Of a stretch of 64,000 bases of DNA, positions 24,459 to 32,640 are shown piece after piece. The notes beneath the pieces were generated by a model. That model searched no databases and was not told where the DNA came from. It saw only the letters and a program-made list of their open reading frames with translations. A program made the position numbers and the translations under genes. Source of the stretch: Promethearchaeota archaeon (GTDB taxonomy: Archaea > Asgardarchaeota > Thorarchaeia > Thorarchaeales > Thorarchaeaceae); contig WJMJ01000131.1 in assembly GCA_014728035.1 (NCBI GenBank), forward strand, positions 117,381 through 181,380, given 5' to 3'. Each line of letters starts with the position of its first letter. Position 1 is the first letter of the stretch.

Positions 24459-24676
24459 TGAAGCTTATAATAACCACTATTCTGCCACCTTCACAAGTAT
24501 GAGGACGAACATACTACGCCTGCCACCCATAAACGAATACAACTGTAGAACAAGATATTCACTAAGATAGGTTGCGGACGTGACGACTCAAAACAAAATA
24601 GTCAGCGAGGAACACAAGCACACAGACATATAAGATTGTAAACAAATAATGTATACGTATACTAAAGCGATTACAT

Positions 24677-24919
24677 GTGATGCTAATGACAGTATCGTCG
24701 GTTAGACTGACAGAGGAAGAGAAGGCCTTTCTAGAGAGACTTGTTGCTGAGGGGAGATTTGAATCCATTAGTGAGGCACTAAAGGCTGGAATATACCAGT
24801 TGATGAGGGAAGAGAAACTCCAACAAGTACCGTGGCAGACTTGTGATGATGTGAGACGGTATTTTGCAGATCGGGAAAAGAAACTGAAGGGGCTTGAAGA
24901 GGAACATGAAGAAGAATAG
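24677..24919 (+). CDS. Ribbon-helix-helix antitoxin (ParD/CopG-like)
   Basis: VSSVRLTEEEKAFLERLVAEGRFESISEALKAGIYQLM. Overlaps the downstream PIN gene. Confidence 0.8.
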   Translation: MMLMTVSSVRLTEEEKAFLERLVAEGRFESISEALKAGIYQLMREEKLQQVPWQTCDDVRRYFADREKKLKGLEEEHEEE

Positions 24920-25376
24920 GATATATCTGGAGGCCTCGGCACTATGGAATCTTTTCTACGGCGAACCAGGAGAAAATCTTGTAGAATATCTACTTCTTCA
25001 TAATGAGTACCTCTGTCTAACGTCAATCTGGAGCCAACTTGAGATACATAGAGGAATTCAGAAACGTATCAATCAGTCAGAGATAACCTCTGAAGAGGGA
25101 ACAAATCTTAGGATATACATAGATACCCATCTACAACAACTGACTACCAGACGAAGGTTGGAACAGGTTCCAGTAGTTGAGGAGCATGTAGAACTCGCCA
25201 AGTCGTTGATAGTGGAATGCAATCTCTATGCATCCGATGCATTACATGTTGCTACTGCTCTGAACAATGCATGTGAGACGATCTTTGTGGATGACTATCA
25301 TATGGAGCGACTGCATGACCGAATTGCCCCACGCCTGCGTATCATGAGGACTTCAGCAGAGATTGAGGATATATGA
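24906..25376 (+). CDS. PIN-domain toxin (VapC-like)
   Basis: IYLEASALWNLFYGEPGE, YASDALHVATALNNACETIFVDDYHM. Start codon chosen as an internal M (KKNRIYLEAS). Confidence 0.78.
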   Translation: MKKNRIYLEASALWNLFYGEPGENLVEYLLLHNEYLCLTSIWSQLEIHRGIQKRINQSEITSEEGTNLRIYIDTHLQQLTTRRRLEQVPVVEEHVELAKSLIVECNLYASDALHVATALNNACETIFVDDYHMERLHDRIAPRLRIMRTSAEIEDI

Positions 25377-25636
25377 AACAGATATCTGAACAAGTGACGT
25401 AATGTACAACCGCCCGCACCTCACGTTTTCTGGACATGCTCGCAATACCTATAATGAGTGTTTGAAGTACGATTTGTGCCTGTACTATCAGACACAAAAC
25501 GAATGCGCAATATGTTCTTGGACTTCCACACAATCATTCAAAGACCGAAAATACCCAGCAAATGGTCGTAGGAAAGAAAACATGTGAATATTTTTTAGTA
25601 TTCATACTAGTTAACAAGGTAAGGAAGTGGGAGATT

Positions 25637-27466
25637 ATGAAGAGATACAAATCAACTTTTGAGAAACTTATTCGACTTCGTAGATATGGAGAGATTGAGG
25701 CCCTCTGTGACAGGCTAATCCAGAACGAGGGGTGGAATGCAATCAGGTCTCTGTTTGCTGACTTGCCGGTGATGGATCATGCCCCCAAAGGATTCACAAT
25801 GATAGACAAAGAAAAGGCATACATTGCAAAAGCAATACTTCAAGATAGGGACAAATTATACCATGTGCGTGGGGGAGAATTCGTTTTGGGAATCCCCTTA
25901 GGAAAAATGCGGGATGCACTGGTCAAACTGTATAGGATAGAGTCAATCAAAGGTATAGATACACCTCTATTGGAGCTCAGTCTCGATTTGAACCCAGACA
26001 ACCTTGAAGAATTACGTACTCAAATCATACCAATATGTATTGAACATTTACTCGACCAAATCAAGACCAAAAACACGTTCTTCTTGGATTTTGAAGAGAT
26101 TGCATCATCACTATATGCAAGCATTATTCCAAACTTGATAGATGCTCGGAAGCAAGAAATTGAGGCGCTTGAAGGGGATAACGATATCAATGAATTGCTT
26201 CAGACATATTACGGATTTGAGGTTATAATAAGAGGGACGATACCAAGATACAATCGTGAGATCCCTAAAGGCCTGAAGCAGAAAACTGACAGTCTCTTCA
26301 GATTGATGAAGGTGAAAGGTACTATTACCAGTGAGGATCTACTCCCTCGAACCAGTCTTTTCCAGCACTGCTCTAAGTACTCAGCATTTCTACTGAATCA
26401 GATTGTTGAGATCTCCATTAGATCGAAACGAAAAAGAGCAAACTCTCTTAGAACTCTGGGATACTTGGGCGATTCACGCGCTATTCCATACATCATGCAC
26501 ATGTTCAATTCATATAACACCAGTTCGGAACACAAACATAAAGCTTTAATCAGAACAGTAATTGAAACTCTGGGAAACATTGGATGTGTCGAATCACTGA
26601 GAGTTCTAAGGGAGCATATCGATAAAATCCATCCGAACACACGAAAAGCTTTTGCTAAGATGGCCTTCTCAGACCCAGAGGAAGTGAAATCACTTCTTGA
26701 AACAATATACAAAATGGGAAGAAAACAGGCTAGTATCATAATTGAAGAGCTATGGAGACTAGAAGACTCCAGTGTGATTCCCATTTTAGAATGGGCACTA
26801 AAAAAACGGGATGTTAGGTCATTTTGTGCAATCCGAGCACTGAAATTATCTGGTGTACAGGGAAAACAAGTTCTGCTGGATCAGGGAGAACACATACCTG
26901 AACTAATGCTGGAAAGAAAATATCTCCGTGAGCTATCGTCTTCCAGAATAGGGTGGGACCTATTCCAATCACCAGGATTCTTTAGAGGAATGATGGAACT
27001 TCTTGAATACCCAGAAAAGGTCATAAAAGTCCCCAACGAAGTTTGGCGAAGGAGCCGACCAGAGTGGAAGGAGGAGTTCGCTAAGCCACTTGCCCAAGCA
27101 ATAAGAAGAGCAGACAAGATCTTCATACAGCTAGTACTTTCTATACCAGAAGGATATTTCCAATATCAGGACCTACAAGATGCAATGAACGAATCTCGGG
27201 AAAAGCTCATCACTCATATGAAGGACGAAAGAAGTTTGAGGGGAACGCTTAGACATATTGGTTATGGGAAAGCAGTTGATATCTGTATCAGATACCCAGA
27301 GATCGCTCAAGATGAGGAGATTGCCAAACTGGTTCTTCAAACTTTTGCAAAGGAATTTGAGAGACCAATATCGGTCAGAGAAGAGAGAATCGAGAAAATC
27401 AGACAGAACAAATGGCTCAGACAAAGTCCTTACTTTGAACTGATTGTAGAAAAGACAAAGAAATGA
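25637..27466 (+). CDS. HEAT-repeat-like helical protein
   Basis: RTLGYLGDSRAIPYIMHMF...VIETLGNIGCVESLRVLREHI...ALKLSGVQGKQVLL repeats. Start at MKRYKST. Confidence 0.7.
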   Translation: MKRYKSTFEKLIRLRRYGEIEALCDRLIQNEGWNAIRSLFADLPVMDHAPKGFTMIDKEKAYIAKAILQDRDKLYHVRGGEFVLGIPLGKMRDALVKLYRIESIKGIDTPLLELSLDLNPDNLEELRTQIIPICIEHLLDQIKTKNTFFLDFEEIASSLYASIIPNLIDARKQEIEALEGDNDINELLQTYYGFEVIIRGTIPRYNREIPKGLKQKTDSLFRLMKVKGTITSEDLLPRTSLFQHCSKYSAFLLNQIVEISIRSKRKRANSLRTLGYLGDSRAIPYIMHMFNSYNTSSEHKHKALIRTVIETLGNIGCVESLRVLREHIDKIHPNTRKAFAKMAFSDPEEVKSLLETIYKMGRKQASIIIEELWRLEDSSVIPILEWALKKRDVRSFCAIRALKLSGVQGKQVLLDQGEHIPELMLERKYLRELSSSRIGWDLFQSPGFFRGMMELLEYPEKVIKVPNEVWRRSRPEWKEEFAKPLAQAIRRADKIFIQLVLSIPEGYFQYQDLQDAMNESREKLITHMKDERSLRGTLRHIGYGKAVDICIRYPEIAQDEEIAKLVLQTFAKEFERPISVREERIEKIRQNKWLRQSPYFELIVEKTKK

Positions 27467-27901: not shown

Positions 27902-27967
27902 AGGATATAGCATATCCTCTACAGAGGACAAAGACTGCAAAAGAAAAATAGTCTGCGAGGATGATGA
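27902..27967. repeat. Direct repeat, distal copy of the 23S 3' spacer/processing sequence
   Basis: aggatatagcatatcctctacagaggacaaagactgcaaaagaaaaatagtctgcgaggatgatga. 65/66 identical to 29178-29243. Confidence 0.95.
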
Positions 27968-27974
27968 GTTGTAT

Positions 27975-29189
27975 CTATTCAGCATCCTCTATTGTTTCAT
28001 GAAGAAGAGAAATCACACCCTTAAGAGACTCAACTTCGCGTTTGAGCATAGCCGTGAATTCCCTCGAATCTTGCAAATCCTCGTAGGGAATTGTTTTAGA
28101 TATTTGAAACCTACCATAAAGATCGATTCTATCCTTTCCAGAATACTTCTTTTCAATATCGGAAAGAGTGAAATCGCATTCCTCAGGAACTAGTCCATAT
28201 ACGGAATACCCTTCTTCAGTTTTCTTTAGGGATTCTACAAATTCTTCATAGTCCAGAACCTTCATTGAAATTTTAGGTAATGGTCCTTTTCGATGAACTC
28301 TGAAATATATTTTGAATCCATCTGGTTTCATTTTGAAAGCGAGAATTACTTTAGATTTCCATTTCTTAGATCTGAATTCTAGATTTTCGAAGGCCAGGTG
28401 TCCAGATTGTTTTTTGTCTAATTCATCAATATTCTTCACCAAAGATGCGATATAGGGTTCTAAGTTGAATAACTGACTCCTAACAGACAGATATCCCGAG
28501 ATATCTTCATTTTTGATCCCACTAAAGGAATTCATTTTCATTTTCTCCAAAATACGTTTAGTTTCCTTGAATAGAAAGGTAGATACAGCTTGTTCACACG
28601 AATTCGGGATAGAATCCGACTTTGTGGATTTATCAGATTCAATGAGACTGCTCAATGCTCTGTGCAGATCTTGCCATAGCATGATATCCACCGATTCTTT
28701 AGGGACTCCCTGCTTTGCAAGGACAGAGAGAATATCCTTTTTAGATTGACTAGTCTGGTCTGCAGTGACTAGAAGTCGGATATCACGATTCTTGTATCTG
28801 GTTTTTAGATCGTCATAGTATTTTCTGAGTTGGGAACTCTTCCCAGACGCGGCGTCGTGTTCTGATTTGACTTTGCTCTCAAATCCAATGACAATTTCAT
28901 CCCCGATCAGAAGACCGTCAATACGCCCATGATCAAGTGTTTCTTGGGAATGAATTATAAAATCGCAGTCCAGTCCCTTAAGTTTATCAAAGCCCAATTT
29001 GCAAAAAAGGGCCTTGCGCCTAGCAATATCAATCTTCTCAAGTACGGCCAGAAACCAGTTAGTAAGCTGGTCCTCGTTTCTTTTGTGAGGTTGATACAAG
29101 AGAGTTAGCCCCATCAATACCACCGTACAAGAAGAGTGTGAATCAGGGTTGATATAAACAAATTCAGGATGTAATTGAGGATATGGCAT
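27975..29189 (-). CDS. PD-(D/E)XK-like nuclease protein
   Basis: NEDQLTNWFLAVLEKI ... GRIDGLLIGDEIVIGFESKVKSEHDAASGKSSQLRKYYDDL gives D...(F)ExK nuclease motifs. Start at MPYPQLHPEF, or possibly MGLTLLYQPHKRNEDQ near 29111. Confidence 0.75.
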   Translation of the reverse strand: MPYPQLHPEFVYINPDSHSSCTVVLMGLTLLYQPHKRNEDQLTNWFLAVLEKIDIARRKALFCKLGFDKLKGLDCDFIIHSQETLDHGRIDGLLIGDEIVIGFESKVKSEHDAASGKSSQLRKYYDDLKTRYKNRDIRLLVTADQTSQSKKDILSVLAKQGVPKESVDIMLWQDLHRALSSLIESDKSTKSDSIPNSCEQAVSTFLFKETKRILEKMKMNSFSGIKNEDISGYLSVRSQLFNLEPYIASLVKNIDELDKKQSGHLAFENLEFRSKKWKSKVILAFKMKPDGFKIYFRVHRKGPLPKISMKVLDYEEFVESLKKTEEGYSVYGLVPEECDFTLSDIEKKYSGKDRIDLYGRFQISKTIPYEDLQDSREFTAMLKREVESLKGVISLLHETIEDAE

Positions 29190-29243
29190 ATCCTCTACAG
29201 AGGACAAAGACTGCAAAAGAAAAATAGTCTGCGAGGATGATGA
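29178..29243. repeat. Direct repeat, proximal copy at the 23S 3' processing region
   Basis: aggatatggcatatcctctacagaggacaaagactgcaaaagaaaaatagtctgcgaggatgatga. Contains small inverted repeats GAGGATATG-g-CATATCCTC and CCTC-taca-GAGG. Confidence 0.95.
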
Positions 29244-29299
29244 TCCACGATACACAGTAGTACACGTTCTACCCTTGGCAACTCTAGGTACTGGCGAGT

Positions 29300-32640
<3,341 letters not shown>

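Follow-up and report, generated by a model that had tools for sequence, protein, structure and literature searches.

Trailer duplication behind the 23S rRNA gene

The 64-kb stretch of Thorarchaeal DNA analyzed here (the window) raises the question of how a single protein-coding gene came to lie between two nearly identical copies of the sequence that trails a 23S rRNA gene. The archaeal 23S rRNA gene occupies positions 29309-32631 on the minus strand and is full length (Rfam RF02540, 2418 bits, model positions 1-2987). The proximal repeat (R1; 29178-29243, minus strand) begins 65 nt beyond the 23S 3′ end and consists of the 3′ part of the predicted pre-23S processing stem, the T-rich tract ATTTTTCTTTTGCA, and the 45 nt beyond that tract. 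Most of R1 is native trailer in the sister genome G001 too, the contig of which stops 79 nt past the 23S reference point; relative to this point, the window repeat spans +31 to +96. Alignment of the distal repeat (R2; 27902-27967, minus strand) identifies it as a copy of the 23S trailer that matches R1 over 66 nt with one mismatch (98.5% identity, spacing 1276, blast E 1e-25), exactly as the initial annotation of this locus had recorded. Just outside the repeat ends, identity falls to 18% and 22%, which is the level expected by chance, and no other direct or inverted repeat of at least 40 bp was found in the 64-kb window. The 23S gene is itself interrupted, at 29809-30065 (minus strand) in the peptidyl-transferase region, by a 257-nt insert that is probably an archaeal rRNA intron and is absent from G001, which reads ACTTACCCCAGGGGTAACAG there; further inserts occur in other Thorarchaeal 23S genes, for example those of G004 and G032 near the equivalent of window position 29677.

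The segment inserted between the repeats (27968-29177, minus strand; 1210 bp) comprises its own TATA-like box (TTTATATC at 29152-29158, about 18 bp within the insert), one gene, and 7 bp that separate the stop codon of that gene from R2. The longest open reading frame (27975-29255) has a listed GTG start at 29255 that precedes the repeat; the ATG at 29114 is a better start and yields a protein of 379 aa (27975-29114, minus strand). With this revision, the earlier statement that the repeats bracket a single gene on the 23S strand stands, as does the reported closeness of its stop codon to the distal repeat, the distance being 7 rather than 8 bp. The absence of a local integrase was likewise borne out, the insert being a single nuclease gene. 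The suggestion of a tandem-duplicating cassette fared less well: the sequences that follow R1 and R2 are unrelated (22% identity), and tandem duplication followed by loss was rejected on the grounds that these flanks are unrelated while the repeats are 98.5% identical.

The proximal copy had been said to contain, and the distal copy for the most part to keep, the 3′ strand of a pre-23S processing stem, and cofolding supports this. The leader CUGC-A-GAGGAUGAUGA is predicted to pair with the trailer UCAUCAUCCUCGCAG, and R2 retains the 3′ strand of this stem, its pairing with the leader reaching -51.4 kcal/mol compared with -41.6 +/- 2.9 kcal/mol for shuffled sequences. According to this folding model, R2 could compete for the 23S leader. 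A canonical bulge-helix-bulge (two 3-nt bulges around a 4-bp helix) was not resolved in the predicted long leader-trailer stem. The inclusion of the 3′ strand of the processing stem in the duplicated stretch recalls archaeal pre-rRNA processing and 23S circularization (PMC12918454; PMC7758197), of which the available portions of these accounts treat RNA maturation only and describe no DNA insertions.

The nuclease-like gene and a probable older cassette

Assignment of the inserted gene to the PD-(D/E)XK nucleases is weak yet consistent with the annotation first given: the match to Pfam PDDEXK_4 (E 4e-4, 20.9 bits) lies under the curated cut-off of 22.3, and a D...ESK motif (IDGLLIGDEIVIGFESK) is recognizable by eye. 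Comparison of the protein sequence with the PDB gave no relevant match, and an AF2 model built from the single sequence (pLDDT 41) was unusable. The gene is present in a single copy in its own genome, so that the source of this cargo was probably foreign DNA; it may be passenger cargo, and its function is perhaps defensive. A selfish element driven or recognized by the nuclease, as had been proposed, was rejected, since the cargo at comparable sites elsewhere is different and unrelated and no relative of the nuclease was detected in 231 other Asgard genomes, phages, IMG/VR, or GTDB contigs; the search for the pair of repeat and nuclease at other loci ended with the same absence of the nuclease from those 231 genomes. 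The further proposal, that the rRNA-processing endonuclease cuts the element out, found no support.

The window also holds a candidate third copy of the 23S trailer, R3 (TCCTCGCTGACTATTTTGTTTTG; 24585-24611, minus strand), which is decayed and no more than suggestive; its local score is 42, whereas nothing else in the 18 kb compared, on whichever strand, scores above 31, and its blast E is 0.012. It lies beyond a gene for a HEAT-repeat protein (25562-27466, plus strand; Pfam HEAT_2, E 1e-6), which is situated between R2 and R3 and probably entered as cargo with an older cassette. Next to R3 is a VapBC-like pair (24677-25376, plus strand), also probable older cargo, that is composed of an RHH antitoxin (24677-24919; ParD_antitoxin, E 3e-4) and a PIN toxin (24894-25376; PIN, E 8e-8). 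VapBC pairs are recurrent cargo in relatives, and the combination of R3 with the HEAT-repeat gene and this typical cargo suggests that the window probably holds two cassettes.

Recurrence at rRNA 3′ ends in related genomes

Copies of the 23S tail lie downstream of the 23S gene in a series of relatives, with lengths and identities of 127 bp and 88% in G011, 98 bp and 96% in G004 (together with four weaker copies), 102 bp and 91% in G028, 366 bp and 84% in G016, 72 bp and 89% in G022, 131 bp and 98% in G061, and 82 bp and 91% in G068. When the tail and trailer were modeled from sequence alone and the model was run over 47 genomes of the family, it returned 22 matches in G011, 13 in G021, 7 in G023, and 6 in G004. 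On contigs that bear the 23S gene, every copy lies downstream of that gene and on its strand, and the genes between the copies are unrelated. Five copies follow the 23S gene of G023, at 1.5, 2.7, 3.5, 4.2, and 6.9 kb, and contig C103 of G011 carries at least nine over 25 kb, all in plus orientation. Copies on contigs that lack an rRNA gene, as found in some genomes, may reflect broken assembly or secondary sites. The array of G016 (L052, 2-8182) is surrounded by large genes for leucine-rich-repeat proteins in tandem and inverted arrangement.

A same-strand downstream copy was present at 10 of 27 Thorarchaeal 23S ends that are followed by at least 1.5 kb of sequence (the window and one 28-bp match left out), compared with none of 197 other window tiles (p 1e-10), which are unmatched to the rRNA ends in transcription level. 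In other Asgard families the frequency is lower than in Thorarchaeota, with copies downstream of 8 of 38 23S ends versus 5 of 222 tiles (p 8e-5). It should be noted that the genomes are mostly MAGs and that the loci read in detail were partly picked for having copies. Outside Thorarchaeota, genome G203 has an intact 23S gene followed by a 301-bp copy (92% identity) 2 kb downstream and then by a third copy. Non-Thorarchaeal 23S-tail arrays include those at L127 6223-9397 and L128 1404-7110 (genomes G203 and G190), and at L128 at least four copies are present on a stretch where no 23S gene was detected. When the 3′ ends of tRNA genes were taken as a control, 1 distinct case was seen among 17 loci. 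A 30-bp segment of the 3′ end of a tRNA-Gly gene in G022 (L053, 8672-8779) is repeated exactly about 3.8 kb downstream and represents an ordinary att-like island footprint. Searches of the open-access literature brought up no account of insertions at archaeal rRNA ends.

In the relatives that were examined, the 16S gene is located apart from the 23S gene, and the same pattern is seen at the 16S 3′ end. The 16S trailer recurs several times in G011, 8-17 kb downstream of the 16S gene, and on another contig in G021, while G004 has three 16S-trailer copies at 92-94% identity with a common right edge after TTTTGCA; no such copies were found in G016 or in G023, the contig of the latter being short. 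The recurrence at 16S genes indicates that insertion is targeted to where an rRNA transcript ends and not to any single 23S sequence. Moreover, a VapBC-like pair in the 23S array of G011 (L058, 9821-10535) is homologous to one in the 16S array of G004 (L143, 15762-16516) from just upstream of the TATA box to the stop codon, and this unit is flanked by 23S tails in the former and by 16S trailers in the latter. The same unit is thus accompanied by the local rRNA sequence at each site, indicating that the repeat derives from the target. Several other cassette genes recur in the arrays of different genera. The same VapBC-like cassette is present in the 23S array of G021 as well (L091, 942-1369), where 2.4 kb of array DNA interrupts the PIN gene and the two halves overlap by about 55 bp at about 80% identity; this locus was considered as a second long target duplication, inside vapC, and was left unused because at such identity the halves may be two different genes.

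Anatomy and polarity of the arrays

At array sites the rRNA gene stays intact with a complete tail and trailer, and the start of the insert coincides with the T-rich termination region or follows closely behind it (in G165, TTTTTTTTT). A right edge at T-tracts was also observed in G206, G203, and G061 and at the 16S gene of G004; in the window, the right edge of the duplication lies 45 nt past the T-tract. The distal copy starts at a tail position that varies from about -229 to +31 relative to the reference point, and it continues across the terminator into older sequence. The length of the duplication therefore differs between events, from 66 to about 370 bp, by virtue of its variable left edge. 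No core sequence is common to the copies, that of the window covering +31 to +96 while others end at +2, and no shared insert termini were seen.

That DNA was inserted at the 23S 3′ end with target duplication, as the initial annotation had suggested, is supported by relatives that differ in cassette number at the same place. The loci of G028 and G014 are collinear over 2.4 kb (77% identity), with one additional cassette of about 1.1 kb in G014 that separates the 23S trailer from the old tail, the latter being preserved from about -66. The comparison with relatives for empty loci thus yielded sites with fewer (G028) and more (G014) cassettes; a single-copy empty state was unreadable in the sister genome G001. 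G004 and G023 have their distal cassettes in common and in the same order, including one with a peptidase M28-like gene, and each has three differing cassettes between the shared ones and the 23S gene. The rRNA-proximal position of lineage-specific cassettes indicates that new insertions enter on the rRNA side, and in the comparisons that were possible the arrays are polar and fossil-like. G029, of the same genus as G004 and G023, has lost most of the array.

Similarity of the copies to the rRNA tail decays monotonically with distance in G023, whereas in G004 and G061 it does not, and some copies are closer to each other than to the present 23S gene. Both G061 and G004 have copies in which the tail part matches the 23S gene of the same genome and the adjoining trailer part has diverged, which suggests that gene conversion was restricted to the rRNA portion. 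Such copies, with a 23S-tail part that is 96-97% identical to the genome's own 23S gene and a diverged trailer, are located at L071 4978-5036 and L044 3378-3475. Because gene conversion is limited to the tail, the decay signal is blurred, and the use of similarity decay as a clock was rejected in view of this and of the non-monotonic decay in G004 and G061.

Cargo and enzyme inventory

The cassettes are gene-sized and often consist of a single gene or a toxin-antitoxin pair with its own promoter. A total of 114 array ORFs encode PIN and HepT proteins, ABC transporters, AAA proteins, methyltransferases, nitroreductases, and peptidases. None of them is a recombinase, as judged from the 25 commonest of their 74 Pfam families. 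About half of the cargo genes are on the strand opposite to the rRNA, including a 4-kb ABC-transporter block. Cargo often begins a short way upstream of a promoter, and its last stop codon is often followed by no more than 3-10 bp, so that the ends are neater than those of random fragments would be; for 9 of 43 same-strand genes the stop codon is within 10 bp of the next copy, where 7% would be expected (p 0.004). Perhaps these neat cargo ends result from trimming of non-coding sequence under selection.

No match to Phage_integrase, Resolvase, or RVT_1 was found in G011 (99% complete, with 22 copies), G021, or G023, and PF00589 is absent from these three genomes and from G016. The genome from which the window derives (G000) has one PF00589 match, on another contig. 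RVT_1 was detected in 4 of the 47 family genomes, none of which is array-rich; two RVT_1 reverse-transcriptase genes, rare in the family, are located on contigs C106 and C136 of G000. That neither such an enzyme nor a common core was found weighs against systems of the integron or island type and also against retrotransposition, and the cargo promoters and opposite-strand operons weigh further against the last of these.

Possible mechanisms of gene capture

The reading that we favor, with a probability of about 0.5, is that the 3′ ends of Asgard rRNA genes are a hot spot where DNA is captured serially, with long target duplication, and that the nuclease gene represents one of the cassettes captured there. 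The enzymology of capture can be proposed from sequence features. A replication fork or a DNA end would stall or break at the terminator of the heavily transcribed rRNA gene, foreign DNA would be joined or copied in at this point, and synthesis would restart further back in the rRNA tail, through staggered-break filling or template switching, such that the intervening stretch would be duplicated. The right edge would correspond to the stall point and the left edge to a variable restart point. The rRNA gene would survive with its own tail and trailer intact, only events of this kind would persist, and later homologous recombination between tails would partly homogenize the copies and could delete cassettes. 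Counting against this model are the non-monotonic decay, the closeness of some copies to each other, the neat cargo ends, and the position of the window edge 45 nt beyond the T-tract.

Filler-DNA capture and template switching with long direct duplications are known processes, as in staggered-nick repair, FoSTeS/MMBIR, and homology-facilitated illegitimate recombination. The loci described here resemble their products in that an insert lies between long, variable direct duplications and no dedicated enzyme is apparent; to the best of our knowledge, however, these processes are not known to recur at rRNA terminators and build arrays there. Unlike insertions of DNA transposons, which have a short target duplication of fixed length and terminal inverted repeats, the inserts are bounded by duplications that vary between 66 and 370 bp, and no termini common to the inserts were seen.

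It is possible, as a tentative extension, that Asgard archaea have a dedicated and previously undescribed gene-capture system that acts on rRNA transcription termini. Such a system would operate without a recombinase of the integron or phage type, would add genes on the rRNA-proximal side, would leave a chronological record of tail copies, and would amount to an integron analogue at both 16S and 23S genes.

Campbell-type homologous recombination would require no special enzyme either: excised circles of a gene and an rRNA tail would re-enter conserved tails by a single crossover and spread between related cells. A single crossover yields exactly the order homology-cargo-homology without any recombinase, the tails are well conserved across the family, and homologous cassette genes are found in the arrays of different genera. 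Because homologous exchange between tails is active (G061, G004), re-integration of circles is a serious rival to, or partner of, break capture. It leaves unexplained, however, the new gene-tail fusions with ever-different left edges and the VapBC unit that has 23S tails in one genome and a 16S trailer in another, and the 66-bp repeats of the window are short for efficient recombination; as the origin of the arrays it appears unlikely.

An integron-like or genomic-island-like site-specific system would entail a recombinase acting in trans on the folded or duplex rRNA tail, the copies being attC or att sites. The likeness to integrons and CALINs is apparent in the tandem single-gene cassettes, the same-strand repeats, the toxin-antitoxin-rich cargo, the stop codons near the next repeat, and the apparent addition at one, rRNA-proximal end, and integrons have been reported as enriched in Asgard archaea in a study of archaeal integrons (Ghaly et al., 2022; PMC9668308). 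However, the arrays of array-rich genomes are accompanied by neither IntI nor another recombinase, with Phage_integrase and Resolvase families missing from the three copy-richest genomes, and they are anchored on the rRNA gene whereas integrons lie beside an integrase. The repeats derive from the tails of 16S as well as 23S genes, with variable extent and no common core, and the tails, judged by eye, do not look like attC palindromes. Such a system is thus improbable. Genomic islands and proviruses enter the 3′ ends of tRNA and tmRNA genes by means of tyrosine integrases. In these islands, too, the 3′ end of a stable RNA is the target, is kept intact, and is duplicated at the far side, but the att core is short and fixed where the rRNA duplication is variable (66-370 bp), and the rRNA cassettes contain one or a few genes, carry no integrase, and reflect many serial events.

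An RNA-templated origin, in which a reverse transcriptase would start at the rRNA 3′ end, copy a 5′-truncated tail, and switch template before insertion of the product at the rRNA locus, would account for the common 3′ edge at the transcript end, the variable 5′ edge, and the stop codons near the junction, but is very improbable given that array-rich genomes lack RVT_1, that cargo includes upstream promoter sequence, and that about half of it, the 4-kb ABC-transporter block included, is on the opposite strand. Misassembly is unlikely to explain the pattern in general, and neither it nor a simple tandem duplication of the rRNA end and the downstream gene with subsequent loss is a credible origin, for although MAG contigs often break at these repeats, the pattern is found in about 20 independent assemblies, including the one-contig genome G022 (2.58 Mb), cassettes are shared in the same order by two species, and the sequences after R1 and R2 share only 22% identity despite 98.5% between the repeats.

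Implications for gene acquisition in Asgard archaea

Asgard archaea, which are related to the ancestors of complex cells and are relevant to the origin of eukaryotes, carry many genes of mixed origin, yet little is known of how they take genes up. If foreign genes are stacked in order at a hot spot behind rRNA genes, the arrays would provide a dated record of gene acquisition and would explain where toxin-antitoxin and other accessory genes gather. Such a hot spot would also suggest that breakage or repair where heavily transcribed genes end is a means of gene uptake without a mobile element.
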